Below, piece after piece: positions 6,409 through 42,973 of a stretch of DNA of 63,059 nt (positions within the stretch are counted from its first letter, which is position 1; every line of letters begins with the position of its first letter). This stretch comes from Candidatus Peregrinibacteria bacterium (GTDB lineage Bacteria; Patescibacteriota; Gracilibacteria; Peribacterales; Peribacteraceae), in the NCBI GenBank assembly GCA_016196225.1, contig JACPXZ010000017.1, positions 1 to 63,059 on the forward strand. The letters run 5' to 3'. The position numbers and the translations under genes are program-made. The notes beneath the pieces were generated by a model that saw only the letters and a list, made by a program, of their open reading frames with translations, ran no database searches and had not been told where the DNA came from.

Positions 6409-6438
6409 TGGAGCTCTAAACTAGAGGCTATTAGAACT
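6409..6438. repeat. Degenerate tRNA-Gly 3'-end (att-like) copy 1
   Basis: TGGAGC followed by TCTAAACTAGAGGCT and ATTAGAACT. TGGAGC is the reverse complement of the encoded CCA plus discriminator and the first acceptor bases of the tRNA-Gly genes in this window. The sequence is nearly identical to the copy at 7664 and similar to that at 37038. It stands about 50 bases before the NYN gene and has the same orientation as all other copies. Confidence 0.6.
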
Positions 6439-6485
6439 GCGATACTCTCGGGGATGACGGTGGCGTGAGGTACGATGCCGCACAC

Positions 6486-7061
6486 ATGGCCGTTCCGTTC
6501 TTCACACTCAAAGGCAAGACGCTCGTCCTCATCGACTGGGCAAACGTCTTCCACGCGCAGCACAAGAACGGGTGGAACGTCGATACCCGCAGACTTTTCA
6601 CCCTCTTCAAGAATCATCAGGAGGTGCAGGACATCGTCCTGTTCCACGGCACCGATCAACACGCCAAGTCGGAGTCGTTCCTCAATGAGCAAGTCGCCAT
6701 CGGCTATCGCATCGTGACAAAGGCTGTGAAGAAGGTGCCGGTGACCACGGATCATGAAGGAAATCAACTCTCAAAGCTCATCCTACGGCGCAAATGCGAT
6801 TTTGATGTGGAGATCTCTAAGGAAATTCTCCTCAATCTCGATCAATTCCAGGGCTTCATCCTCGTGAGCGGCGACGGCGACTACGCTCCGATCTTCGATG
6901 TGCTCCGAGAGCGTCACAAACAAGCGATCCTCGTCTTCCCAAAGGGAGGGCTTGGACGTGAGTACATCGAACATGAACAGCGGAAGAGAGCGATCTTCCT
7001 CTGTTCACTCGAACGTCTACGACCGTTCATCGAGACAATAGTTCGACGTGGCCTGTCCTGA
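6486..7061 (+). CDS. NYN-domain (LabA/PIN-like) putative ribonuclease
   Basis: A 191-residue NYN-family protein. Conserved acidic residues of the PIN-like active site are visible: VLIDWANVF (D near residue 17), KCDFDVEISKEI and VSGDGDYAPIFD. Such proteins act as metal-dependent RNases. I start at the ATG giving MAVPFFTLKG because the strong homology starts there. It is a single-gene module, preceded by the att-like repeat at 6409 and followed by a hairpin belonging to the opposite strand. Its place in an accessory array suggests a defence or mobile role, but that is inference. Confidence 0.8.
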   Translation: MAVPFFTLKGKTLVLIDWANVFHAQHKNGWNVDTRRLFTLFKNHQEVQDIVLFHGTDQHAKSESFLNEQVAIGYRIVTKAVKKVPVTTDHEGNQLSKLILRRKCDFDVEISKEILLNLDQFQGFILVSGDGDYAPIFDVLRERHKQAILVFPKGGLGREYIEHEQRKRAIFLCSLERLRPFIETIVRRGLS

Positions 7062-7529: not shown

Positions 7530-7669
7530 GCCCCAGTAGCAGATGCTCTCTGTTCGTCGCATCGCTACAGGGCACTCAGTACATGTGGCCTGCCACGAAG
7601 TCATGGAGCAGTTTTGGCATTTTTCAAAATGCCAAGCCGAAGGCTCCTGCGACATGTACTTCGTGGAGC
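7530..7669. repeat. R1 hairpin repeat, copy 1
   Basis: A 140-base repeat with one mismatch (7659) to the copy at 9528-9667. It folds into two adjacent imperfect hairpins. The left one is 7530-7573 (GCCC..GTAGC..GATGC pairing with GCATC..GCTAC..GGGC). The right one, 7593-7666, is closed by CCACGAAGT/ACTTCGTGG, with an inner perfect stem TTGGCATTTT/AAAATGCCAA at 7614-7635. The right stem ends exactly at the TGG (CCA complement) of a degenerate tRNA end. On the minus strand it holds a 43-codon frame (7524-7655) with a CxxC-x8-CxxC pattern. Confidence 0.9.
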
Positions 7670-7693
7670 TCCAAACTCGAGGCTATTAGAACT
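7664..7693. repeat. Degenerate tRNA-Gly 3'-end (att-like) copy 2
   Basis: TGGAGCTCCAAACTCGAGG then CTATTAGAACT, matching the copy at 6409 in 28 of 30 positions. It directly abuts R1 copy 1, just as the true tRNA-Gly(CCC) end abuts R1 copy 2. The zeta-toxin gene follows about 45 bases on. Confidence 0.65.
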
Positions 7694-7738
7694 GCGATGT
7701 GCCTGAGAATGAAATCCGCATGATATGCTGCAATCGTT

Positions 7739-9527: not shown

Positions 9528-9667
9528 GCCCCAGTAGCAGATGCTCTCTGTTCGTCGCATCGCTACAGGGCACTCAGTACATGTGGCCTGCCACGAAGTC
9601 ATGGAGCAGTTTTGGCATTTTTCAAAATGCCAAGCCGAAGGCTCCTGCGACATGTATTTCGTGGAGC
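9528..9667. repeat. R1 hairpin repeat, copy 2 (abuts tRNA-Gly CCC)
   Basis: 139 of 140 bases match copy 1 at 7530-7669. Its last six bases (TGGAGC) are the complement of the tRNA-Gly(CCC) 3' end including CCA. Similarity stops right there: this copy continues into a functional tRNA and copy 1 into a degenerate one. The minus-strand small frame seen in copy 1 starts here 8 bases after the tRNA CCA and runs to 9468 (61 codons, same CQNC...CTEC pattern). Confidence 0.9.
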
Positions 9668-9735
9668 GGGATACGGGAATCGAACCCGCATCTCGAGCTT
9701 GGGAAGCTCGCATACTGCCACTGTACTAATCCCGC
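9662..9735 (-). tRNA. tRNA-Gly (anticodon CCC)
   Basis: A cloverleaf is readable on the minus strand: acceptor GCGGGAT/ATCCCGC, D arm, anticodon stem CGAGC/GCTCG with loop TTCCCAA (anticodon CCC), T arm CGGG-TTCGATT-CCCG, encoded CCA. Its 3' end is the junction with R1 copy 2. Confidence 0.93.
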
Positions 9736-32430: not shown

Positions 32431-32519
32431 GTCCCAGTACTATTACAACCGCTTGCCCGGCGTAGCTCAGAGGACGAAGTCAGGTGATGGGTCCGACTAG
32501 GAGTCTGTGCCCCTGACGG
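32431..32519. repeat. E element copy 1 with partial att-like end
   Basis: It starts with a partial att-like end (CCAGTACTATTACAACCG), then CTTGCCCGGCGTAGCTCAG, GACGAAGTCAGGTGATGGGT, CCGACTAGGAGTCTGTGCC and CCTGACGG. The middle resembles the 5' half of a tRNA (CGTAGCTCAG...). Related copies are at 37890, 40262 and 34059. The antiporter gene follows 74 bases later. Confidence 0.65.
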
Positions 32520-32593
32520 AAACTTCCGTTCAATAAGCCTGTTGCATCGGAATTGCCAAGTACAGCAATAATCAATATCATGCCAATCACACT

Positions 32594-33982
32594 ATGTGCG
32601 CAAAGCGCTCTTTGCAGAGGAATTTCTTTCTCCTGTTTATCATTGGTCTGGTCTTGGGAAGCAGTGCACTCGCTGCGACGGAAGGAGCTGCGACTGAAAC
32701 AGGAGTACATTCCTATGCTTCTACGCTCTTCTGGATGGCGATCTTGCTCCTCTTTGGGAAATTTGCCAGCCTCGTGGAGAGAATCGGACAGCCGTCGGTG
32801 CTTGGAGAACTCGTAATCGGCGTTGCTCTTGGGAATCTGACATTACTCGGGATAACCGCATTTGAATCTGCTGAGGCCGATCCGCTTCTCCGCTTCCTCG
32901 CGGAATTGGGTGTCATCATCCTGCTTTTCCAGATTGGACTGGAGTCAAACATCCAGAAGATGGGAAAGGTGGGTATTCCTGCATTCCTTGTGGCGGCTGT
33001 CGGAGTTGTCGTGCCGTTCGTGCTCGGCACCTACGTTGTGGGTCCGTATCTACTCCCTGGTCTCACATCCCAAGCGTATCTCTTCCTTGGCGCGGCACTC
33101 ACTGCCACATCCGTCGGCATCACTGCTCGTGTATTCAAAGATCTGGGTAAACTCCAAACGCCGGAGGCACAGATTGTTCTCGGGGCGGCAGTCATCGATG
33201 ATGTCATTGGTCTCGTGATTCTGGCTGTCGTGTCCGCGATAGCAACGGCGGGAACCGTGAGTGCCGGTGTCATCGCCCTCATTACGGGGAAGGCAGTGTT
33301 CTTCCTCATCGGCTCTATCGTTCTTGGTGTCCTTCTCGCTCCATGGCTGGGATGGATTTTTTCAACAATCCATACGGGTGTTGGCATGAAATTCACGCTC
33401 GCCATTACTTTCGGTCTCTTGCTCGCCGCCGCAGCACAAGAGATCGGACTCGCCCCGATTGTTGGAGCGTTCGCAGCAGGCTTGGTCCTCGACCCTGTCC
33501 ATTTCCGGTACTTCCAAGACTTCCATGTCGTGGATGACGTGCGGGCGGCGATCAAAGGCAGCGATCCTGCCCTTCAAAGGAGAGTACAAGAAGCAATTAA
33601 ACCCCATGCAGAACGCCACATCGAGTACCTCATCGAACCCTTAGGGCATTTCCTCGTGCCGCTCTTCTTTGTGATGACGGGCATGAGCGTGAACCTTCTC
33701 ACACTCTTCGATCCATCAATCATTCTCGTCGCTCTCGGAGTCACCATAGTAGCGTTCGTCGGTAAAATCGTGGCAGGTTTGGCGGCGGGGAAAAGGGCAA
33801 GGAAATGGCTCGTTGGCTGGGGCATGGTACCGCGCGGTGAAGTCGGTCTCATCTTTGCAACAATCGGCAGAGGATTAGGTGTTGTGACAGATGAGTTGTT
33901 CTCGGTAATCGTGATCGTCGTCATTCTTACGACGCTCTTAACGCCGCCTATTCTTGCATTCCAGTTGAGAGGAACGAAATGA
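32594..33982 (+). CDS. CPA2 family monovalent cation/proton antiporter
   Basis: A 462-residue protein with an N-terminal signal-like helix (FFLLFIIGLVLGSSALA) and 12-13 helices of the Na+/H+ or K+/H+ exchanger fold. The transport motif GAAVIDDVIGLVIL contains the paired Asp of electrogenic CPA2 members. FGKFASLVERIGQPSVLGEL and MVPRGEVGLIFATIGRGLG are also typical. No KTN/RCK regulatory domain is attached. It is the leftmost module of the tRNA-Gly(UCC) array, preceded by E element copy 1. Confidence 0.88.
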   Translation: MCAKRSLQRNFFLLFIIGLVLGSSALAATEGAATETGVHSYASTLFWMAILLLFGKFASLVERIGQPSVLGELVIGVALGNLTLLGITAFESAEADPLLRFLAELGVIILLFQIGLESNIQKMGKVGIPAFLVAAVGVVVPFVLGTYVVGPYLLPGLTSQAYLFLGAALTATSVGITARVFKDLGKLQTPEAQIVLGAAVIDDVIGLVILAVVSAIATAGTVSAGVIALITGKAVFFLIGSIVLGVLLAPWLGWIFSTIHTGVGMKFTLAITFGLLLAAAAQEIGLAPIVGAFAAGLVLDPVHFRYFQDFHVVDDVRAAIKGSDPALQRRVQEAIKPHAERHIEYLIEPLGHFLVPLFFVMTGMSVNLLTLFDPSIILVALGVTIVAFVGKIVAGLAAGKRARKWLVGWGMVPRGEVGLIFATIGRGLGVVTDELFSVIVIVVILTTLLTPPILAFQLRGTK

Positions 33983-34058
33983 CTTTCTAATATTGCAATG
34001 AGTTGTATTTCCGATTATCAGTACAAGAAAATTTGTCTTGAATAAACCATGAATCAGA

Positions 34059-34122
34059 TGGAGCTGGTACCTGGAAATTATTACAACTATGATGCGTCCG
34101 ACTAGGAGCCTATGTCCATAAG
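34059..34122. repeat. Degenerate tRNA-Gly 3' end plus short E element
   Basis: TGGAGCTGGTACCTGGAA then ATTATTACAAC (34059-34087) closely matches the copy at 37890. It is followed by GCGTCCGACTAGGAGCC and TATGTCCATAAGG, the right half of the E element. The MFS gene follows about 80 bases later. The surrounding gap (33983-34205) holds nothing else that I can identify. Confidence 0.65.
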
Positions 34123-34205
34123 GTTTTCGGGCGTCTGAGCGAAGAAAAGATAGAGCTTACTTCCACAATCGCACACGTTTGGCCGATTCAGGATACATTG
34201 ATAAC

Positions 34206-35381
34206 ATGGCCTCAATGATGCACCTTCCCACTTTCCTCAAAGTTTTTTATACGTACCAATTCCTGCATGATTTCATTTTGATATATGCAGTAGATAAATT
34301 GTTTTTTGTACAAAACGGTATTTCTCTAACACAAGTTGCCACGTTACTTTCTATTTGGGCGGCAGCTTCTTTCTTACTTGAGATTCCGACTGGTGTACTG
34401 GCAGACAAATGGAATAGGCGTTCCATGTTGATATTGGGAAGTTTATTTTATGCCGTGTGTTACAGCATTTGGCTCTTGTATCCGACATTTGAATGGTTTT
34501 TGATTGGTTTTATTTTTCGCTCTCTTGCCTCCACCTTCTCCAGTGGAACTTTGCAGGCATATACCTACGATTTCCTAACAATTCATAAAAGGCAGGACTT
34601 GTTTGAGCAGATTTGGGGCAGAGGGCGAGCCTTTAATTTGGCAGGTCTGGCACTAGGTTGGGTCTTTGGTGGCATCGTCAGCGAGTATTCGTACTGGTGG
34701 GTATTAGTGCTTTCTGCTGGCGCAGGTGTCGCTACCACTATTGCTGCGTTTTTCTTTCCGAACATTCAGAAACAAGTGCCGCTTAATGAACCGAATCCTT
34801 TTCATTTTCTTCGTGAGGGTCTTGCTTATGCATTTACCCATCGCGTCATTCTCAATGTGTTTTTGTATACTGCCATTGTCAGGTCGTCGTATGCAGTCAT
34901 AGATGAATATTGGCCTATTTTGTTCCAGCAATATGGCATGCCAAACACAGTTCTTGGCATTTCAGTAGCTGTTGCCAGTCTCTGTGGCGGCTTCGCAGGT
35001 ACGAATGCTCATCGGTTCAAAAAACAGCCGTGGAACATTCTTAATCAAGCTACGCTTTATATGAGTGTGGTATTGATTGCCACAGCATTTGTAAAATCTG
35101 CTTTCATCATCATATTTCTTCTGACTTTTGAGGTAGTTTTGGGAGTAACAAGCGTTTTGGCCGAAGGTGTCATTCAGCGAAATGTTGCGCAGCATCAGCG
35201 AGCAACGATGGCATCCGTGAATGCCATGTTTGTAGAAGTGGCCATTGTGACTGGTCTCATGTTTGGCTTTATATCAGATAAGGTGGGCATTCAATATGGC
35301 TACGGGTTCTTTGGCATCTTTATCTTGATGTATTTGGTAGCGCAGTACTTCGTTAATCCAAGAAAATTAATTTCTGCGTAG
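34206..35381 (+). CDS. Major facilitator superfamily transporter
   Basis: A 391-residue protein of 12 helices. The loop after helix 2 carries LEIPTGVLADKWNRRSML, the MFS motif A variant, and helix 4 has FIFRSLASTFSSGTLQAYTYDFL. It resembles single-polypeptide drug or metabolite exporters. Its DNA is clearly richer in A and T than that of its neighbours, which suggests acquisition. I start at the ATG giving MASMMHLPTF; a TTG-started frame begins 27 bases earlier. It is a single-gene module between att-like repeats. Confidence 0.85.
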   Translation: MASMMHLPTFLKVFYTYQFLHDFILIYAVDKLFFVQNGISLTQVATLLSIWAAASFLLEIPTGVLADKWNRRSMLILGSLFYAVCYSIWLLYPTFEWFLIGFIFRSLASTFSSGTLQAYTYDFLTIHKRQDLFEQIWGRGRAFNLAGLALGWVFGGIVSEYSYWWVLVLSAGAGVATTIAAFFFPNIQKQVPLNEPNPFHFLREGLAYAFTHRVILNVFLYTAIVRSSYAVIDEYWPILFQQYGMPNTVLGISVAVASLCGGFAGTNAHRFKKQPWNILNQATLYMSVVLIATAFVKSAFIIIFLLTFEVVLGVTSVLAEGVIQRNVAQHQRATMASVNAMFVEVAIVTGLMFGFISDKVGIQYGYGFFGIFILMYLVAQYFVNPRKLISA

Positions 35382-35404
35382 CAAAAGGGTGGGTGTCTTT
35401 AAAA

Positions 35405-35545
35405 GCCAGACTACGTGCTCTGGCGCTTCCGACTTCGTCCATTGGGCTACGAGGGACAGGTCATCCGGCAGCCTTCGTGAACTTATTATAAAAGCTGGCC
35501 TGCCGGCCGTAGCTCCTCCGCAGAGGAGCGAAGGCTGGAGCGGGT
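35405..35545. repeat. R2 hairpin repeat, copy 1
   Basis: A 141-base repeat matching 41474-41616. It contains the hairpin GCCAGA/TCTGGC, then a long hairpin closed by CAGCCTTCG/CGAAGGCTG with an inner stem GCTCCTC/GAGGAGC. The right arm ends at TGG of a degenerate tRNA-Gly end (35536-35565: TGGAGCGGGTTACTGGAA then TTTATTACAACC), whereas copy 2 abuts the intact tRNA-Gly(UCC). The layout parallels R1, though the sequence is different. Confidence 0.85.
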
Positions 35546-35565
35546 TACTGGAATTTATTACAACC
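35536..35565. repeat. Degenerate tRNA-Gly 3'-end (att-like) copy 4
   Basis: TGGAGCGGGT is identical to the 3' acceptor complement of tRNA-Gly(UCC) for ten bases, then decays into TACTGGAATTTATTACAACC. It overlaps the end of R2 copy 1. The small coiled-coil gene follows 47 bases later. Confidence 0.65.
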
Positions 35566-35612
35566 ACAACAGTCACTTGTTTGTAGAGAAAGTATCATTA
35601 TGATAATGAGCA

Positions 35613-35867
35613 ATGAATGGTTCTGCACCAGTGACACAGGGAGATATGAAGGTCGTGAAGGATGATATTCGGTTGATAAAGGATGATATTCGGTTGATAA
35701 AGGATGATGTGCAAAGAATAGAGAAGAAATTCGATCAGAAGTTCGAGAGACTTTACGAGGCGGATGATCAGATTCTGACTGTTCTTACAAATATGGATAA
35801 GCGCCTTATGGGCAAGGTTGAAGACCATGAAAAACGTATTGTTCGTCTGGAGGAGGCAGTGGCATAG
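35613..35867 (+). CDS. Small coiled-coil protein with tandem repeat
   Basis: An 84-residue, highly charged coiled-coil protein. Near the N-terminus a 7-residue unit (IRLIKDD) is repeated, encoded by a perfect 21-base tandem repeat at about 35655-35705. The rest keeps heptads (RIEKKFDQKFERLYEADDQ). It has no signal peptide. It resembles the helical proteins at 12581 and 41723 in size, charge and placement, but lacks their VLLEHMQG motif. It is a one-gene module of the array. Confidence 0.65.
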   Translation: MNGSAPVTQGDMKVVKDDIRLIKDDIRLIKDDVQRIEKKFDQKFERLYEADDQILTVLTNMDKRLMGKVEDHEKRIVRLEEAVA

Positions 35868-35942
35868 CGTTAATTTCATCTCGAAAGGGACCCTTTGGAT
35901 TTGGGAGTTAGTATCCAGATGAAAAGGATTCTGATTCTTCAA

Positions 35943-36065
35943 TTATTTTCCAGTCCGATCCAATTCTTCGCCAGCCCATGCGACTATTTTGGACAATGGA
36001 TGTCCACTTTTCTGGGCAAGGGCCTCCAGTTTTTTGTGTATCTCCCATGGAATATACGAGCCCAT
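35943..36065 (-). CDS. Truncated ribbon-helix-helix-like small protein
   Basis: 40 residues: MGSYIPWEIHKKLEALAQKS then GHPLSKIVAWAGEELDRTGK. The pattern of a strand followed by two helices is like the C-terminal half of CopG/RHH antitoxins. The frame continues upstream only as far as the IS1595 inverted repeat at 36087, so the gene was probably cut by the insertion. No partner toxin is adjacent. Confidence 0.4.
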   Translation of the reverse strand: MGSYIPWEIHKKLEALAQKSGHPLSKIVAWAGEELDRTGK

Positions 36066-36086
36066 TCCGGCACCAGTGACGATAGA

Positions 36087-36922
36087 GGGGACTACACCAG
36101 ATATGAGTTGGTGAAAATGAGAGAATGTGGCCTCCACTTCTTCTTTTTCACCCATTATGTCTGCAAGAACAATTTTCTGTCGGTTTTGTGGGGCGGCCGG
36201 TGCGCATCGTTTCGGGAAAGATCGACGACACCGTCAGCGCTACCAGTGTTCGCATTGCTCCAAAGTCTTTCTTCGGAGGACCAACACGGTGAAGAGTGGG
36301 AGTCATCTCTCTGATCGTCAATGGGAGATGGCCATGAAGCTGTTTGCGACAAGGGCTGGTATGTCTGCTGCAGACCTGAGCAGGGTGCTCGGCATCAATC
36401 CGAAGACCGCACAGAAGCTCAACAGAATCTTCCGACATGTCGTCCAGGGATTGCGACCCCACCGTATTCCCGGTGTCTCAGAGTGGGATGAGAGTACCTT
36501 TAGCACGCAATGGGTACTGGGAGGTGTCTCGAGAGACTCGAAGCAGTGCCTGCTCGAATGCATCCCAGACCGACGTGAAGACACGATGTGTCCCCGCGTA
36601 CTGCGAGCGGCAGGACCGGGGGGCTCGTCTTCACCGATGAGCATCTGGGCTACAACGGTCTCTATCGTCACATGACGGTCTGCCACAGCAGGGAGTTCGT
36701 GAACAGTGATGCACGCTTCGTCCACACGAATACCCAGGAGGGTATCTGGGGTCACTGCAAGACCTTGTCGTGGCACATCTACCGTGGCTTCCCCAAGGCT
36801 TCCTTACCCCAATTTCTGTCGGAATGCATGTTTCGCTACAATATTCGCATCTACTCTACGAGAGTCTCCGTTCTTTCTGCCCTTCTCTCTCGAAAAACCA
36901 ACTCATATCTGGTGTAGTCCCC
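36087..36922 (+). mobile_element. IS1595-family insertion sequence
   Basis: Perfect 26-base inverted repeats lie at 36087-36112 (GGGGACTACACCAGATATGA then GTTGGT) and at 36897-36922. They enclose a transposase with an ISXO2-type DDE domain and N-terminal zinc ribbon. I see no clear target duplication. The element is 836 bases, somewhat short for the family, and its transposase frame is broken. Confidence 0.88.
36157..36917 (+). pseudogene. IS1595 transposase, frameshifted
   Basis: The N-terminal zinc ribbon (CRFCGAAGAHRF...YQCSHCSKVFLRR) and first half through EWDEST are in one frame. The catalytic remainder (GGLVFTDEHLGYNGLYRHMT, then NTQEGIWGHCKTLSWHIYRG) is in another. The switch falls within about 36590-36625, near a run of six G. 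Either the gene is dead, a single-base error exists, or ribosomal frameshifting on the G-run joins the halves. Both inverted repeats are intact, so the insertion is probably recent. Confidence 0.85.
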
Positions 36923-37037
36923 CATGTGCGTGCAGGGTAGAGCTTTTATGGTAGTGTGAAAAGGGAAAATTTGTGCTCATGCCTGTGCGTGCGACGGCGG
37001 ACAGCCTTCGCCTCGCAGATCATTCCAGTTCTTTGGC

Positions 37038-37066
37038 TGAAGCTCTAAACCGAAGGTTATTAGAAC
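37038..37066. repeat. Degenerate tRNA-Gly 3'-end (att-like) copy 5
   Basis: TGAAGCTCTAAACCGAAGG then TTATTAGAAC, most like the copies at 6409 and 7664. It lies 17-180 bases beyond the IS. The rest of the gap (36923-37037) holds no gene that I can support. Confidence 0.5.
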
Positions 37067-37105
37067 CGTTTGGGAGATTAAGAGGTGTGTCCTGTGAAGA
37101 GCGTA

Positions 37106-37807
37106 CTACTTCTTTGTAGCTTTAAGAATCGTTTGTAGCATCTGGCGACTCTGTATTCCAGTGGAGCAAAACACACGAAAACCATTATTCGAGAGGGGCA
37201 TAGAATCAACAAGGTGATGCAGACGTGTCTCCCATAATTCAGGGTTATCAGGATATGGGTCGACACAGGTAACCTGGTCTCCGTCCAACTCCTGAATGAG
37301 AACGCAATGTGAGGTACGATTATTCTTAGCACACCTTATGCTTTCCAATGCATGATTAGCATACGAAACCATAATATCATTCCCCTGCAGGATGTTTTTT
37401 CGTACAAATCCAGTAATATCCCCAATGGTATCGGGGGAAATGTACTGACTTCTCAGATCAATTTTTTTTCTACGAAAGAACGAATTGAGTGTTTTTACAA
37501 TGGAATGAGCTCCATATGTTTTCAACTTTTTTGATCGTGATGTCTTGATATCCTCGTAAAAAGCTTCTGCGTAATCTTTTGGTATCACAAGCCCCATTGC
37601 TTTTCCTATGGTTCCTTGCGGGAAAAGAGGTAGATTTCTTCTATAGAGAATCATCTGAATGCATGCAGGTACACAGCAATAATCTTTCTGAAAAAAGGGG
37701 ATGTACATTGGTTCGATTGCGACGCGTGACGATTCCTGTTCCGAATTCATGTGTTCAGTCATTAGTGTGCTAAGAAAGGAAAGCGGCTCAGGATAGGCAA
37801 AAAACAT
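37106..37807 (-). CDS. Papain-fold (C39-like) cysteine peptidase-like protein
   Basis: A 233-residue protein. The segment FQKDYCCVPACIQMILYRR resembles the catalytic Cys helix of C39/papain-like peptidases. SHCVLIQEL and VTCVDPYPDN supply a plausible His and Asp/Asn. The middle holds VRKNILQGNDIMVSYANH. No transporter or signal peptide is attached, so it acts in the cytosol or is exported by an unknown route. It is a single-gene module oriented against most of its array neighbours. The start is uncertain because several Met codons lie within the first 20. Confidence 0.65.
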   Translation of the reverse strand: MFFAYPEPLSFLSTLMTEHMNSEQESSRVAIEPMYIPFFQKDYCCVPACIQMILYRRNLPLFPQGTIGKAMGLVIPKDYAEAFYEDIKTSRSKKLKTYGAHSIVKTLNSFFRRKKIDLRSQYISPDTIGDITGFVRKNILQGNDIMVSYANHALESIRCAKNNRTSHCVLIQELDGDQVTCVDPYPDNPELWETRLHHLVDSMPLSNNGFRVFCSTGIQSRQMLQTILKATKK

Positions 37808-37889
37808 ACTAATAGCAATAAGTTAAGTTCGATTCCGCTTATGGTCATGCAAAATCAGCCTCTATTTAGCGAATGAAAACAAAATTTGG

Positions 37890-37987
37890 TGGAGCGGGTA
37901 CCTGGAAATTATTACAACCGCTTGCCCGGCGTAGCCCGGATGGCAAAGTCGGGTGATGGGTGTGTCTAGGAGTTTGTGTCCTTGAGG
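37890..37987. repeat. Degenerate tRNA-Gly 3' end plus full E element
   Basis: TGGAGCGGGTACCTGGAA then ATTATTACAAC (37890-37918); the first 11 bases are identical to the tRNA-Gly(UCC) 3' end complement. Then CTTGCCCGGCGTAGCCCGG, ATGGCAAAGTCGGGTGATGG and GTCTAGGAGTTTGTGTCC. The E part can fold as CCCG...GCC/GGC...CGGG. This is the most complete copy of the composite. The gap between 37808 and here has no other feature. Confidence 0.75.
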
Positions 37988-38014
37988 TAATCAATACATT
38001 GATACAATAAGAAC

Positions 38015-38569
38015 ATGTCTATACCAGCGGAAAATCGTTTAGAATGTCCTCAAGATATGAAACTCGTAGGACCATCATTGGAGTACAAGAAAAGTTTTGA
38101 GGAAGCCATCGAGGAATTACGAAAAACCGGAGATCGTATGGGTCTATGGGAAGACATCGGTTCTCCAAAAAACATTGAGGAGTACATCCGTCTTCGAAAA
38201 GACCATTCTCAAGGGAAAGATTTGCCCACAGGATACATTCCATCAACAACCTACTGGCTTCTTGATAATGGAAAAGTGGTTGGTGAAGTGCATGTTCGTC
38301 ATCAACTCACAGAACACCTTCGCAACGAAGGAGGACATATCGGCTACTGGATCAGACCAACTAAACGTCAACAGGGATATGGTAAAAAGATTCTTGAACT
38401 TGCTCTTGAGAAAGCAAGGGATCTGGGTATCGAGAAAGCATTGGTTACCTGTGATACAACCAATACCGCATCAAAGAGGATCATCGAATCTAATGGTGGT
38501 GTTCTCGAACAAGCAAAAGACCCTCAGGGAAAACCCAAAAAGCTTCTCTATTGGATTGATCTAAAGTAG
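38015..38569 (+). CDS. GNAT family N-acetyltransferase
   Basis: A 184-residue acetyltransferase. The acetyl-CoA loop reads RPTKRQQGYGKKILELALEK (Q/RxxGxG variant), and GEVHVRHQL and HIGYWIRP supply the preceding strands. The C-terminal SKRIIESNGGVLE is typical of GNATs. The acyl acceptor is unknown. It is the first gene after the composite repeat at 37890 and lies 25 bases before the deformylase-like gene. Confidence 0.88.
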   Translation: MSIPAENRLECPQDMKLVGPSLEYKKSFEEAIEELRKTGDRMGLWEDIGSPKNIEEYIRLRKDHSQGKDLPTGYIPSTTYWLLDNGKVVGEVHVRHQLTEHLRNEGGHIGYWIRPTKRQQGYGKKILELALEKARDLGIEKALVTCDTTNTASKRIIESNGGVLEQAKDPQGKPKKLLYWIDLK

Positions 38570-38594
38570 ATCTGCATCCTAGAAGTTTTTGTTC

Positions 38595-39143
38595 ATGAAC
38601 ACTGTACAATCTCATGCCATGAAGAAATGGCTCACTCTCATTGGTGCGTTCGTGGTCGTGATGATCGCACTCTTCATGTTTCTCAAATATCAGAAACAGA
38701 TTGAACTTGGCATTGTCCAAGCCCCAAATGCTATTCTTCACACGTTCAGTGAACCGGTGAATGAGATTGATGAAGAAGTGCAAAAAGTTGCTGTAGAACT
38801 CAAAGAAAAACTCCAGAAGCTGGATCGCAAATGGAGTCTGTTTGGTTTGGGGCTGGCAGCACCGCAGATCGGCTACAGCACTCGCATTATTGGGATAAAG
38901 CGCTCATACGGGGATTATCAGATCATGATCAACCCAGAAGTGGTAGAACAGAAATGGTCTGTTCCGTTTGTGTCCACCTGTTTTAGTCTGAAAGGTTTAC
39001 ACGTTCTTCGTCGCAATCTCTGGATGAAGGTGCGGTATACCGATATCAAAAACAATGGACATGAAGAAATTTTCCGGTGGGGACGTGCGACGGTTCTCCA
39101 GCAGGAGATCGATCATATTAATGGGGTGTTGGTGAGTGATTAG
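38595..39143 (+). CDS. Membrane-anchored peptide deformylase-like protein, altered active site
   Basis: A 182-residue protein. An N-terminal membrane helix (WLTLIGAFVVVMIALFMFL), absent from normal deformylases, precedes a deformylase domain. Motif 1 is GLGLAAPQIG (intact). Motif 2, normally EGCLS, reads STCFSL. Motif 3, normally HExDH, reads QQEIDHING, so the first metal-binding His is Gln. Catalysis by the usual Fe/Zn mechanism looks doubtful. It may be a pseudoenzyme or have a new role at the membrane. It overlaps the convergent adenosine deaminase-like gene by 4 bases. Confidence 0.78.
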   Translation: MNTVQSHAMKKWLTLIGAFVVVMIALFMFLKYQKQIELGIVQAPNAILHTFSEPVNEIDEEVQKVAVELKEKLQKLDRKWSLFGLGLAAPQIGYSTRIIGIKRSYGDYQIMINPEVVEQKWSVPFVSTCFSLKGLHVLRRNLWMKVRYTDIKNNGHEEIFRWGRATVLQQEIDHINGVLVSD

Positions 39144-40210
39144 GAGGATACATCAAATCCTCTCCTTCTAAATTCTTCAAAAATCCATTCTCGTTCCTTG
39201 GCACTGCAAAATGCTCCGAAGATTGCATTGCGACTGAGCGTTTGGACATGATTTATATCAAAATTATATGCCTTGCATGTTTCTACAAAGACATCAGCAA
39301 GGGATGTATGATCCATTGCCGGATCATCCGAATGGAGAGAGACAAGAACGTTACGATCGAGAAGTTCTTGTAAACGCAGGTCTCGCACGTCGTCTATCAC
39401 CATAGAGGCCAAATTGGAAAGAGGACACGATGCAATACGTGTTCTTAGTTGGACCACGTGCTCTATTGCCTCTGGCATGTCAGGAAGTAGTATTGCGTGT
39501 CCCAGTTCATCTGCTCGTAAATCGATCAGTGACGTTATAATATTTTGACGAAGTTTTTCCGGTGTTTTTGCCACCTCTCCTGCATGAACGCAACGGCGAA
39601 GATTTGAACCAAATGTAAGTCGAAATGCGTCGACATGCAACTCTGGCGGATAATCGATCTCATTGCACGCGAGATCAATGGCAACCACGCCCTTGTCCTG
39701 GTATTTCAGCGCTGCTCGTGCAACCTCCGGACCAATCGTAACGTTTTCTCGGCCGATGCATGCGATAAGTTTGACAAGAGTTCCTGTTTTTTCAAAACCT
39801 CTTTGAAGACCGATGAGCGTGTTTTCAATTGCGCCCTCCAATGTGAGTCCTTTTCGTAAATGGTATTGTGGCGCAAAACGTGTTTCAGCGTAAACAAAGT
39901 TTTGGGCAGCCAGATCTCGTACATGCGTTTCCGCGACATCTTGCAATCCTTCCGGGGTCTGCATAAGAGAAATGACAATATCAAATGTACGTAGTAGATG
40001 ATCAAAGTCTCTGGATGTTCGAATGTCCCGACTGTCATCAAATTGAAAGTACGTTTTTAACGCATCGAGCGATTGTTCGGGGATATGTGGAAGAGTGACA
40101 CCATATTCCTGGGCGATGCACCAAATATCCTCCGGGTTGATTGCTCCATCAAGATGCAAGTGCATCTCGATTTTTGGCATATTTTCCAGAAACGTACGGT
40201 CAGGTTTCAT
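39140..40210 (-). CDS. Adenosine deaminase family protein
   Basis: A 356-residue metal-dependent deaminase. Motifs: MHLHLDGAI (zinc ligands), CVHAGEV, LGHAILL and VSLHSDDPAMDHTSL (the family SLNTDDP variant). Homologues deaminate adenosine or adenine for purine salvage. All zinc ligands and the catalytic Glu appear present. It lies in the accessory array, convergent with the deformylase-like gene. Adenine deaminase is an alternative, since the two cannot be told apart by eye. Confidence 0.88.
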   Translation of the reverse strand: MKPDRTFLENMPKIEMHLHLDGAINPEDIWCIAQEYGVTLPHIPEQSLDALKTYFQFDDSRDIRTSRDFDHLLRTFDIVISLMQTPEGLQDVAETHVRDLAAQNFVYAETRFAPQYHLRKGLTLEGAIENTLIGLQRGFEKTGTLVKLIACIGRENVTIGPEVARAALKYQDKGVVAIDLACNEIDYPPELHVDAFRLTFGSNLRRCVHAGEVAKTPEKLRQNIITSLIDLRADELGHAILLPDMPEAIEHVVQLRTRIASCPLSNLASMVIDDVRDLRLQELLDRNVLVSLHSDDPAMDHTSLADVFVETCKAYNFDINHVQTLSRNAIFGAFCSAKEREWIFEEFRRRGFDVSS

Positions 40211-40261
40211 AAAAAGGGAGGAACTGTATCATGTGATGATTGTTTTACAAGGCGCCGATAT

Positions 40262-40324
40262 CCCGGCGTAGCCCGAAGGGCGAAGTCGGGTGATGGGTGG
40301 TTCTAGGAGTTTGTGTCCATGAGG
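40262..40324. repeat. E element copy 3
   Basis: CCCGGCGTAGCCCGAAGGG, CGAAGTCGGGTGATGGGT and TCTAGGAGTTTGTGTCC, then ATGAGG. It has a clear hairpin (CCCG...GCCC-GAA-GGGC...CGGG). The preceding TTTTACAAGG is a weak match to the att-like end. It lies between two minus-strand genes. Confidence 0.7.
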
Positions 40325-40331
40325 ATCGGGG

Positions 40332-40619
40332 TTAATCCTCGGGAGTTGGCTTACATTTTTTGCACGGCCGATATCCCTCCTCAACTGCATCATCCCATGT
40401 GTGAAAGAAAACCCGATTCTCCTTCTTCATACGCATGCCAGACCTACAATCAAGACGTCCAAATATTTTTCCTGGTCTCCAGCCAGCGTATTTTCCCGGA
40501 ATTTCACTAAGAATAATTTCTCCCCCTTTCAGAATCTTATAGAGCTTCTTTCGCGTTTTCCCATGCAAGAAAGAAATGGCTGATGTCTGCTGACTGTCCT
40601 CTTCTTTTGCTTCTGACAC
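40332..40619 (-). CDS. Ada-type metal-binding domain protein
   Basis: A 95-residue protein ending in an Ada-like zinc domain: GKIFGRLDCRSGMRMKKENR, VFFHTWDDAVEEGYRPCKKC. Three of the four usual Cys ligands are present; the second is Ser. The N-terminal half is basic (HGKTRKKLYKILKGGEIIL). Such stand-alone domains are common in Patescibacteria and may bind damaged or specific DNA. A GTG start two bases after the upstream gene's stop is preferred over a TTG-started extension. The same fold, without cysteines, ends ribosomal protein S1 here. Confidence 0.75.
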   Translation of the reverse strand: MSEAKEEDSQQTSAISFLHGKTRKKLYKILKGGEIILSEIPGKYAGWRPGKIFGRLDCRSGMRMKKENRVFFHTWDDAVEEGYRPCKKCKPTPED

Positions 40620-40621
40620 CT

Positions 40622-41146
40622 CTAGCGATCTACGTTTGATATTGATGGACAAAACTGCTGACGAAACAGCGTAAAGATTTCTGCTCGTGCCTGCTCCGTG
40701 AGAGGTTCTAACGATTTTGTTGATTTAGGAGCTTCTCTACTCCACGGTTCTCCTGTCACCATGAGCGTGATAGCTGGTTCATCAATAGGTGCAACAAAAT
40801 GCCAATCATTAAGGTCAACCATTTCGTATCGAGAGCCTGGTTGCATGGTAAGCACCTTATCTATAGGAGGGTTATCGTCACCACCCCCGTGACCAACTCC
40901 CATTTTATATGGTGCAGAACCCGGGAGAAGAAGCATTGCCGATGGCCATGGATGTGGATGAAAGAGTGCCTCTTCCGGCTTACATGGATGAATACGATGG
41001 AGATAGATTCGATAGATATCTCGCCATTGTCTCCAAAGACGTTCAACTCGTGGGGGGTGATAGTTCACATCTTTTCCCACCCAAGCGGATTCATCTTTCA
41101 GAAGCTCGGGGAGTTCCAGCTCTACTTGTTTTAGTACATCCAGCAT
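40622..41146 (-). CDS. Cupin-like hypothetical protein
   Basis: A 174-residue protein. FHPHPWPSAMLLLPGSAPYK, MGVGHGGGDD and DLNDWHFVAPIDEPAITLMV suggest a cupin barrel with two or three histidines as metal ligands. The N-terminal helical part (LWRQWRDIYRIYLHRIHPC) is basic. I do not recognise a named family. It is translationally linked to the downstream Ada-like gene and belongs to a three-gene minus-strand module with the GIY-YIG gene. Confidence 0.6.
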   Translation of the reverse strand: MLDVLKQVELELPELLKDESAWVGKDVNYHPPRVERLWRQWRDIYRIYLHRIHPCKPEEALFHPHPWPSAMLLLPGSAPYKMGVGHGGGDDNPPIDKVLTMQPGSRYEMVDLNDWHFVAPIDEPAITLMVTGEPWSREAPKSTKSLEPLTEQARAEIFTLFRQQFCPSISNVDR

Positions 41147-41190
41147 AGGCGGGGAATAGTATCAGTTGTATTTCCGGTTAACTATCACAT

Positions 41191-41445
41191 TTATGACATA
41201 TTCTTCCGTGCAAAGTGCTTAAATCTGAAAGCACTACCTGAGCCTGTTTTCATATGTTTTTCAAATGCAATCGCTTTCTTCTCATCACGGAAACCACAAA
41301 ACCATTCAACATGCCACGGTCTTTTGCTTTTTGTAGCATCAACTGAACCTTCGTTGTGCTCTTTGAGGCGATCATTAATATCGGACGTATGCCCCACATA
41401 CTGATCGCCGTTCTTATTTTTAAGAATATAGACGAAATGCCACAT
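41191..41445 (-). CDS. GIY-YIG nuclease (UvrC/homing-endonuclease-like, short)
   Basis: An 84-residue single-domain protein: HFVYILKNKNGDQYVGHTSD (GIY reads VYI, YIG reads YVG), NDRLKEHNEGSVDATKSKRP and the C-terminal IAFEKHMKTGSG containing the catalytic Glu. Stand-alone domains like this are abundant in Patescibacteria and frequently sit beside tRNA genes. Here it lies 29 bases from R2 copy 2, next to tRNA-Gly(UCC), on the same strand. An in-frame extension to 41511 reads through the repeat and is rejected. Confidence 0.88.
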   Translation of the reverse strand: MWHFVYILKNKNGDQYVGHTSDINDRLKEHNEGSVDATKSKRPWHVEWFCGFRDEKKAIAFEKHMKTGSGSAFRFKHFARKNMS

Positions 41446-41473
41446 GCATTTCGATTGTAGGGAAAAACATATA

Positions 41474-41616
41474 GCCAGACTACGCGCTCTGGCGCTTCCG
41501 ACTTCGCCCATTGGGCTACGAGGGACAGGTCATCCGGCAGCCTTCGCATAGTCATATAAAAAAAGCTGGCCTGCCGGCCGTAGCTCCTTCGCAGAGGAGC
41601 GAAGGCTGGAGCGGGT
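41474..41616. repeat. R2 hairpin repeat, copy 2 (abuts tRNA-Gly UCC)
   Basis: It matches 35405-35545 except for a variable 15-base stretch in the middle and a few substitutions that preserve pairing or lie in loops. The closing stem CAGCCTTCG/CGAAGGCTG ends at TGG, the complement of the tRNA CCA, so the hairpin directly abuts the mature tRNA end. Confidence 0.85.
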
Positions 41617-41681
41617 AGCGGGAATCGAACCCGCGTCATCAGGTTGGAAACCTGAGGTAATAGCCACTATACCATACCCGC
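41607..41681 (-). tRNA. tRNA-Gly (anticodon TCC)
   Basis: Minus strand: acceptor GCGGGTA/TACCCGC, D arm GGTATAGTGGCTATTACC, anticodon stem TCAGG/CCTGA with loop TTTCCAA (TCC), T arm GCGGG-TTCGATT-CCCGC, encoded CCA. Its 3' end is the junction with R2, and degenerate copies of this end recur to its left. Confidence 0.95.
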
Positions 41682-41974: not shown

Positions 41975-42001
41975 GGACTGGATTCTACAGTAATGATTGA
42001 T

Positions 42002-42065
42002 AGACACAAACTCCCGATCTGTTTCATAGAGTCTTTCGATCTTTTTCTCTAATCTCTAAATATCC
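42002..42065. repeat. Inverted E-type element with TCTTTCGAT tail, copy 1
   Basis: AGACACAAACTCCCGATC, then GAGTCTTTCGATCTTTTTC and TCTAATCTCTAAATATCC. The start is the reverse complement of the E-element motif TAGGAGTTTGTGTC. The tail matches the copy at 42825. It precedes the TSUP gene by 25 bases. Confidence 0.6.
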
Positions 42066-42089
42066 TTATACGTTCACTGACTCCATACC

Positions 42090-42815
42090 ATGCCCATAGA
42101 AATCATTGCCATCGGTATTCTCACGCTCATTGCCTCCACCGTCGGAACAATGACCGGATTTGGCACGTCGACAATCATGATTCCTGTTTTGCTCTTTTAT
42201 TATCCCCTTCCACAAGCTCTTCTTCTTGTCGGCATCATCCACTTCGTTGGCGATATTTGGAAAATGATCCTCTTCCGCAAGGGGGCGACGTGGAATCTGT
42301 TGCTGCTCTTCGGGATTCCCAGTGTCCTTGCTGCCTATGCAGGCGCTCGTCTCACCCTGACAACGGAACCAACTTTGCTTTTGAGAATCCTCGGGGCTGC
42401 CCTCATCACATACATGTTCTTCCTTCTCTTCCATTCATCATGGAAGTTGCCAAAGTCGAACGCAACTGCAGTGGCGGGCGGCGCATTATCGGGATTGATG
42501 GCAGGCATCTTTGGGGTAGGAGGGGCAGTGCGAGGAGCGTTCCTAACCGCCTTTGATTTTCCTAAACACGTTTACATCTTCACCACCGGTGCCATCGCCT
42601 TCATGACCGATTCCATCCGCCTCCTTACCTATGGGATCGGCAATGTGAATCTGCCAAAAGAGCTCTGGTATGGAATGATCCTGTTTCTACCACTTTCCTT
42701 TGCCGGTGCATGGTTTGCGAAAAAGACTGTTGGGCATGTTTCGGAAAAAACATTTCGACAAATCATTGCCCTGTTTCTCGCTCTTGTTGGAATAAAGTTC
42801 CTGCTGTTTCCATAA
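42090..42815 (+). CDS. TSUP (TauE/SafE) family membrane protein
   Basis: A 241-residue protein with seven to eight helices. The two family signature regions are IASTVGTMTGFGTSTIMIPV in the first helix and AGGALSGLMAGIFGVGGAVR after the midpoint, both the glycine-rich half-repeat of TSUP. Members export or import sulfite, sulfoacetate or other anions. It is a single-gene module between two inverted E-type elements, right of tRNA-Gly(UCC). Confidence 0.9.
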   Translation: MPIEIIAIGILTLIASTVGTMTGFGTSTIMIPVLLFYYPLPQALLLVGIIHFVGDIWKMILFRKGATWNLLLLFGIPSVLAAYAGARLTLTTEPTLLLRILGAALITYMFFLLFHSSWKLPKSNATAVAGGALSGLMAGIFGVGGAVRGAFLTAFDFPKHVYIFTTGAIAFMTDSIRLLTYGIGNVNLPKELWYGMILFLPLSFAGAWFAKKTVGHVSEKTFRQIIALFLALVGIKFLLFP

Positions 42816-42824
42816 ACGGTTCAC

Positions 42825-42885
42825 GGACACAAACTCCTAGACCCAAAGGATCTTTCGATCTTTTTCTCTCATCTTTGAATATCCG
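42825..42885. repeat. Inverted E-type element with TCTTTCGAT tail, copy 2
   Basis: GGACACAAACTCCTAGACCC, AAAGGATCTTTCGATCTTTT, TCTCATCTTTGAATATCC. It is the reverse complement of the E-element core joined to the same tail as at 42002. It lies 10 bases after the TSUP stop. Confidence 0.6.
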
Positions 42886-42973
42886 CCTTTGTTGATAGTG
42901 TAGAACCATTCATTGGTGACCAATGTAGTGATCCTTTCTTTAAAAACAAGGAATCGCTAAACTCCTTCACCCT

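Follow-up and report, generated by a model that had tools for sequence, protein, structure and literature searches.

The question raised by positions 32,431-41,681 of the DNA analysed here is how a row of small gene modules came to lie behind a tRNA-Gly(UCC) gene, separated by short sequences that resemble the tRNA 3' end. The stretch (the window; 63,059 nucleotides) is one contig of a 1.085-Mb genome that belongs to the order-level group called Candidatus Peribacteria / Peregrinibacteria in public records. A sequence-only reading of the window had described the separators as degenerate tRNA-Gly 3' ends accompanied by elements named E, and had proposed a general system rather than chance. We believe, with a probability of roughly 0.7, that the array is a stack of cassettes inserted successively at the tRNA-Gly 3' end by a large serine recombinase and, judging from sequence comparisons across the order, a site in the window is best understood as a P.B' junction that closes off an inserted unit on its distal side. 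Genomes (G000, G001 etc.) and loci (L024, L029 etc.) are labelled where they have to be told apart.

The attachment site

The same-facing tRNA-like ends reported at 34059-34087, 35536-35564, 37038-37066 and 37890-37918 were found at these coordinates and in this orientation. The sites of the window and their two tRNA anchors are as follows.

41607..41681, minus strand: tRNA-Gly(UCC), putative attB and array anchor at its 3' end (low coordinate)
40247..40319, minus strand: E motif (exact, 40303-40319), hairpin and decayed attachment half
37890..37982, minus strand: attachment site with hairpin insert; E at 37966-37982 (exact), GTTGTAATAA..ACCCGCTCCA at 37890-37918
37038..37066, minus strand: decayed attachment site (GCTTCA, without E)
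35536..35564, minus strand: attachment site without E, followed by the second copy of the hairpin repeat R2
34059..34118, minus strand: complete 60-bp attachment site (E plus GTTGTAATAA..GCTCCA), profile E value 1.9e-13, member of the training set
32441..32513, minus strand: distal site relic; E, hairpin and GTTGTAATA, CCA end gone
9662..9735, minus strand: tRNA-Gly(CCC), anchor of a companion array
7664..7723, minus strand: attachment site, type 2, CCC array
6409..6468, minus strand: attachment site, type 2, CCC array

Alignment of the sites disclosed a gap-free unit of 60 bp made of E (TGGACACAAACTCCTAG), 14 nt, GTT(G/C)TAATA, 14 nt and GCTCCA, with the consensus order TGGACACAAACTCCTAG...CATCAT-GTT(G/C)TAATA-N14-GCTCCA; in the window, E carries three mismatches at 34102 and at 32497. 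E lies at a constant 14 nt upstream of GTTSTAATA or else is parted from it by a hairpin insert (window 37920-37954, several copies in L062 and L125), and E and the "tRNA end" are therefore one site. Moreover, the likeness to tRNA-Gly is limited to the last 6-13 nt, GTTSTAATA and the middle being conserved non-tRNA sequence, which identifies these units as half-sites with a tRNA tip. Thus, tRNA-like ends and E elements are present and face the same way, as had been described, but together they would form serine-integrase junctions and not worn tRNA copies.

In 13 sites we found no hairpin fold (z-scores from -1.9 to +1.5) and no consensus structure, and a strand without a fold argues for a duplex DNA site; an attC-like hairpin between E and the attachment half, suggested by eye, was ruled out by the same folding. 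E often supplies the stop codon (..DTNS*) of genes running in the tRNA direction. A conserved C-terminal peptide DTNS was rejected as its explanation, since its nucleotides vary without a codon pattern and it is kept beside reverse-oriented genes, both of which indicate a DNA motif.

Distribution and polarity of the sites

A strict pattern of the end matched five times in the 1.085-Mb genome, at three of the four ends of the UCC array and at two in the CCC locus, with no match on the other strand and none for a reversed-pattern control over the whole genome. These two arrays were the only places matched. A window-derived pattern found ten further sites in four other genera (control, none). With a sequence-only profile, sites turned up in 33 genomes out of 74, which represent 26 of the order's 40 genera; the most in a single genome was 11 (G049, mostly in one array). 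When the exact pattern was run against 84,980 bacterial and archaeal species genomes, 15 of the 16 matches fell in metagenome-assembled genomes of Ca. Peribacteria, and the remaining one is likely due to chance. The system is therefore broader than had been supposed, the more so as it extends to other tRNAs (see below).

We collected 59 sites, and for 47 of them the tRNA was on the same locus. All 47 lay downstream of the tRNA on the same strand, at a median distance of 2.1 kb. The cassette units had a median length of 1.32 kb (quartiles 0.85-1.98 kb).

Serine recombinases at tRNA ends

Directly behind tRNA-Gly(UCC), G014 and G065 carry genes for large serine recombinases of about 540 amino acids (PF00239+PF07508+PF13408, with a Y.RKS motif), and the C-terminus of the Gly-type enzyme (..WSG*) has its last codons read from the tRNA gene itself. 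The radiation of which these enzymes are part has members in more than 50 of the 74 genomes. Within a set distance, 18 of 36 recombinase genes converged on a tRNA 3' end and none was codirectional, several of the other 18 being also tRNA-adjacent. The target tRNAs include Gly, Leu, Asn, Cys, Arg, Thr, Glu, Gln, Lys, Ile, Val, Ser and Met, and the recombinase clades broadly track tRNA identity, with switches such as that from Asn to Arg. A companion gene (449/453 amino acids) has neither a recombinase domain nor any other known domain; a CcrA/CcrB pair, which the sizes would fit, was discarded for that reason. The best plasmid and phage recombinases showed 22-28% identity to the Peribacteria enzymes, and an alignment-free AlphaFold model of the recombinase had a mean pLDDT (predicted local distance difference test) of 36. 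Carriage by phages or plasmids was also rejected, as neither the site nor a relative of the enzyme was found in viral contigs; two E matches there look like chance, with one shared surrounding sequence that had no tRNA, site or recombinase.

A dedicated tyrosine recombinase was rejected as well. Apart from one protein on a small contig, all PF00589 matches in the order were Xer-like, and G001 had none in spite of its four sites. Among the loci collected by then, the array loci encoded no tyrosine recombinase, such genes being confined to two loci chosen for theirs. The small contig (G000:C10, L024; 6.3 kb) encodes a tyrosine recombinase of 280 amino acids and a small toxin-like protein, and is possibly a plasmid or a contaminant.

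The full recombinase elements connect enzyme and site. Those at two Asn tRNAs and one Arg tRNA end 6.2, 9.4 and 13.2 kb away, respectively, in GTTCTAAGTTNNTCCARTRCGGRGNNCCA, with the six final bases matching the element's own tRNA. This 29-bp pattern (GTTCTAAGTTNNTCCARTNNNGNGNNCCA) occurs exactly three times in the 74 genomes, at the distal ends of just these three recombinase elements (Asn, Asn, Arg) and with the tips GAGCCA, GAGCCA and GTACCA. Leu, Trp, Asn, Arg and Thr tRNAs are also followed by analogous sites, and where these carry E (Leu, Trp, Asn and Thr) their final six bases are those of the tRNA in front of them. Taking all tRNA types together, E was followed by the own tRNA's last six bases in 28 of 55 cases, and by the ends of other tRNAs in 6 of 330. 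We also rebuilt attP by joining the distal P half to the tRNA-side P' half of seven elements, none from the window, and obtained a dyad centred between tRNA-end bases -6 and -5 (positions 71/72) that was not equalled in any of 2000 shuffles. The predicted central dinucleotide of attP, shared with attB, is tRNA-specific, GC for Gly, as expected of a serine-integrase attP. It is because the tRNA-Gly sites of the window share the design of these element ends that we read them as P.B' junctions.

Gain, loss and possible exchange of cassettes

In four same-genus comparisons (G015/G013, G064/G066, G064/G067 and G066/G067), synteny of the upstream flank stopped at the tRNA 3' end (0 to +3 bp), and similarity resumed past inserts of 0.8 versus 2.9 kb in G015/G013 and of about 0.1, 1.8, 2.6 and 10.9 kb in G064, G066, G067 and G065, respectively. 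The same-genus pairs offered no clean single step from an empty to a filled site, G066 and G067 differing by more than one unit. Some cassette genes are common to several genera, with amino acid identities of 82-88% (NYN) and 85% (TSUP) compared with 62-68% for MetG in the same genera, a difference that favours movement of the cassettes.

Origin of the array

On the reading that we favour, successive insertion by a serine recombinase, the enzyme would join a circular DNA bearing the P half to the tRNA end, and each insertion would restore the tRNA and push older cassettes outward. Most cassettes have no recombinase and would depend for their movement on a full element, whose Gly-specific enzyme would act in trans; the genes nearest to the tRNA may be expressed from its promoter or from the cassette's own start. 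Since the enzyme is missing or broken in the genome of the window, its array would at present be immobile or reliant on incoming elements.

Several observations weigh against this reading. No intact recombinase was found in the genome of the window, which has broken or short genes only. The cassettes are without the P' half that full elements have beside the tRNA, and serine integrases normally require both halves of attP. The right half of the sites (AGTAACCCGCTCCA) differs from the local tRNA at one to three fixed positions, and neither an excised circle nor a precisely empty site was seen in the genomes compared. The R1 model is blind to the Asn, Arg and Thr sites, and the kinship of the site classes therefore rests on their shared design. 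Two sites depart from the own-tRNA rule, a Gly-type site behind tRNA-Thr (L074, 7330-7382) and one ending in GCTCCA behind tRNA-Leu (L254, 13035). As for exchange between genera, the MetG baseline is a single gene and the cassettes may evolve slowly, and the TSUP copy of G004 (81%) has no clear margin over MetG. The exceptions in L074 and L254 may reflect enzymes switching targets. The first feature of a small cassette, exactly after CCA, is a hairpin, a terminator or a promoter; it may be that the enzymes accept variation in the right half, as would be needed for attB in stacks, and act on cassettes in trans, or else that the cassettes are full elements that were stripped down.

Accretion of fossils is the alternative built on this last point: the cassettes would be remains of full-size serine-recombinase islands that lost their integration module by deletion, the small ones never having been mobile alone. 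Full elements do occur at the same tRNAs, P' and recombinase are missing from every small cassette, the window has decayed sites and an insertion sequence, and in Dehalococcoides islands with and without integration modules have been explained by accretion (PMC3146451). However, the sequence right after CCA in the cassettes is a terminator, promoter or hairpin in which no scrap of a recombinase is left, their length is consistently about 1.3 kb with one or two genes, and the site often gives direct genes their stop codon. Furthermore, tandem cassettes only 0.7 kb apart in L253 share identical 44-bp end sites. We hold such an origin to be rather unlikely.

Much less credible is an integron-like system in which a tyrosine recombinase would recognise an attC in the 60-bp site and an attI in the tRNA end. 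The polarity of the arrays, the single-gene cassettes, the stop codons provided by the site and an anchor beside a presumably strong promoter would all suit it, but the sites examined do not fold and have no common structure, the only common tyrosine recombinase is Xer-like and absent as a PF00589 match from G001 despite its four sites, and it is the serine-recombinase elements that have end sites of the same design. We give equally little credence to a process with no recombinase, in which homologous recombination between repeated sites and REP-like (repetitive extragenic palindromic) hairpins would shuffle cassettes after DNA uptake. The R and R2 repeats, of about 130 bp and 92-99% identical within arrays, and the hairpins in and around the sites could serve such a process; conservation of the site across genera, with tRNA-specific ends and the attP dyad, would not be expected from repeats alone.

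Layout of the window

The modules behind tRNA-Gly(UCC), of one to six genes each, have the following components besides the sites listed above; three features from the CCC array and from the other side of the tRNA are added.

41473..41606, minus strand: R2 hairpin module directly after the tRNA CCA
41191..41511, minus strand: GIY-YIG nuclease gene, nearest to the tRNA; relatives in about 22 other loci
40622..41146, minus strand: cupin-like gene, no Pfam match
40332..40652, minus strand: Ada zinc-binding domain gene (Pfam)
39140..40210, minus strand: adenosine deaminase (Pfam)
38589..39143, plus strand: peptide-deformylase-like gene (Pfam)
38015..38569, plus strand: GNAT acetyltransferase (Pfam)
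37106..37807, minus strand: C39-like peptidase cassette, weak Pfam match below the cut-off
36087..36922, plus strand: insertion sequence with perfect 26-bp inverted repeats and a split transposase frame, within the coiled-coil module
35613..35867, plus strand: coiled-coil gene; relatives in G001 arrays (L029, L030)
35404..35535, minus strand: second R2 hairpin module
34179..35381, plus strand: MFS transporter cassette (Pfam)
32594..33982, plus strand: Na+/H+ antiporter cassette (Pfam)
6465..7061, plus strand: NYN-domain gene cassette of the CCC array, 82-88% amino acid identity to copies in three other genera
42090..42815, plus strand: TSUP gene, beyond the tRNA, of a putative inverted relic cassette
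42824..42840, plus strand: E motif in the opposite orientation, 9 bp past the TSUP stop

Most gene assignments of the sequence-only reading agree with this list (antiporter, MFS, coiled coil, GNAT, deformylase, adenosine deaminase, Ada and GIY-YIG), the C39 call being weak and the "cupin" having no Pfam match. The base composition of the modules varies from 40.7 to 53.3% GC compared with 49.5% outside the arrays. Across the order, 62 of the array genes of at least 100 amino acids run with the tRNA and 31 against it, and the families include GNATs, small P-loop kinases, and NYN and GIY-YIG nucleases. Small GIY-YIG nuclease genes are among the commonest and often the first behind the tRNA, and they could conceivably act there in a homing-like way. 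In several first cassettes (L062, L072, L076, L118) TTGACA follows CCA exactly, with an A/T-rich stretch about 17 nt further on, an arrangement that is promoter-like. A reverse-transcriptase-like gene, judged by eye from its sequence, lies in the tRNA-Gly(CCC) array of G001 (L029:7540-8373).

Both copies of R2 exist where they had been noticed, at the tRNA (41474) and at one internal end (35405), and they are 97% and 92% identical (35404-35477/35484-35554 and 41473-41546/41555-41625). A palindromic R repeat (CGWAGTACACGTCGC..., about 130 bp) stands right after CCA in several genera (window 9528-9661 and 7530-7663; L126, L127, L129), and other GC-rich hairpins sit inside attachment sites. The R repeats are REP-like elements that favour these junctions, and R2 is, like them, a dispensable hairpin and not the unit of the system.

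Beyond the tRNA (window 41990-42900), two plus-strand E-like motifs (42001 and 42824) and a 41-bp direct repeat enclose the TSUP gene, which is homologous with a cassette of G019 from the start codon (ATG) through E. The region is apparently an inverted relic of an older array. In several same-genus pairs (G007/G008, G052/others, G055/G057, G003/G004, G059/G060 and G025/G026; loci L098-L137 and others), tRNA-Gly(UCC) and about 130 bp of upstream DNA are inverted between otherwise conserved flanks; an opposite-strand relic beyond the tRNA agrees with such repeated inversion between species.

Comparison with known systems

Of the systems described so far, the Dehalococcoides ssrA islands and the staphylococcal and Enterococcus cassette chromosome elements (SCC/ECC) come closest. 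In Dehalococcoides (McMurdie 2011), the gene for a serine recombinase of about 540 amino acids (DsiB) lies on the reverse strand and overlaps the ssrA 3' end, and tandem downstream islands, many without an integration module, have as their borders short repeated copies of the RNA 3' end, closely preceded by a conserved motif (PMC3146451). Relatives of the window, though not the window itself, likewise have a large serine recombinase at attL, on the reverse strand and overlapping the tRNA 3' end. However, ssrA is the only target in Dehalococcoides and its repeats are of 20 bp, whereas in Peribacteria many tRNA species are used with 6-13 bp of tRNA identity, the E motif is common to them and the units are mostly of one or two genes. 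Also, there is no second small serine recombinase (DsiA), the Peribacteria companion being a protein of about 450 amino acids with no known domain.

SCCmec and the Enterococcus cassette chromosome (CcrAB) likewise use serine recombinases, insert at a conserved gene's 3' end, form tandem elements and have a dyad in the attachment site (attR/attECC; PMC6222049). They differ in their target, rlmH for SCC instead of tRNA genes, and the Peribacteria enzymes, at 54-68 bits against Ccr cut-offs of 700-900 (NCBI), are not of the Ccr family. With integrons, including sedentary chromosomal integrons and clusters of attC sites lacking integrases, the arrays share polarity, mostly single-gene cassettes, an anchor, stop codons in the site and the existence of integrase-less arrays, but they have a double-stranded serine-type site and a tRNA anchor in place of the attC hairpin and the integron integrase. 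Tycheposons of Prochlorococcus and Methylophilaceae (4-200 kb) are also tRNA-anchored cargo islands in streamlined genomes, but they use a tyrosine recombinase (PMC10872708), and a site for each cassette is not described in that work. Our search of the literature on Patescibacteria integrons or tRNA cassettes found nothing on this system, and the words integrase and mobile are absent from the main text of a 2016 paper on complete Peribacteria genomes. As far as the literature consulted shows, the multi-tRNA range, the units of one or two genes and the shared E motif are new.

Conclusions

As a tentative extension, for which the odds are somewhat below even, the system might be a serine-recombinase counterpart of integrons, in which the tRNA genes of Peribacteria would provide both a fixed platform for capture and a promoter, and tRNA-specific recombinases acting in trans would capture, stack and exchange between genera non-autonomous single-gene cassettes whose 60-bp site is one-sided. 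The likely enzymes can be named, since a radiation of serine recombinases sits at tRNA ends and covers many target tRNAs, which suggests that enzymes of this class can build integron-like arrays. The signature of site-specific gene capture is order-wide, predicts where acquired genes start and end, and can be scanned for in any metagenome. It bears on how the ultra-small, streamlined Patescibacteria gain genes: in Ca. Peribacteria, tRNA genes would be the places where acquired genes dock, a role comparable to that of integrons in other bacteria.

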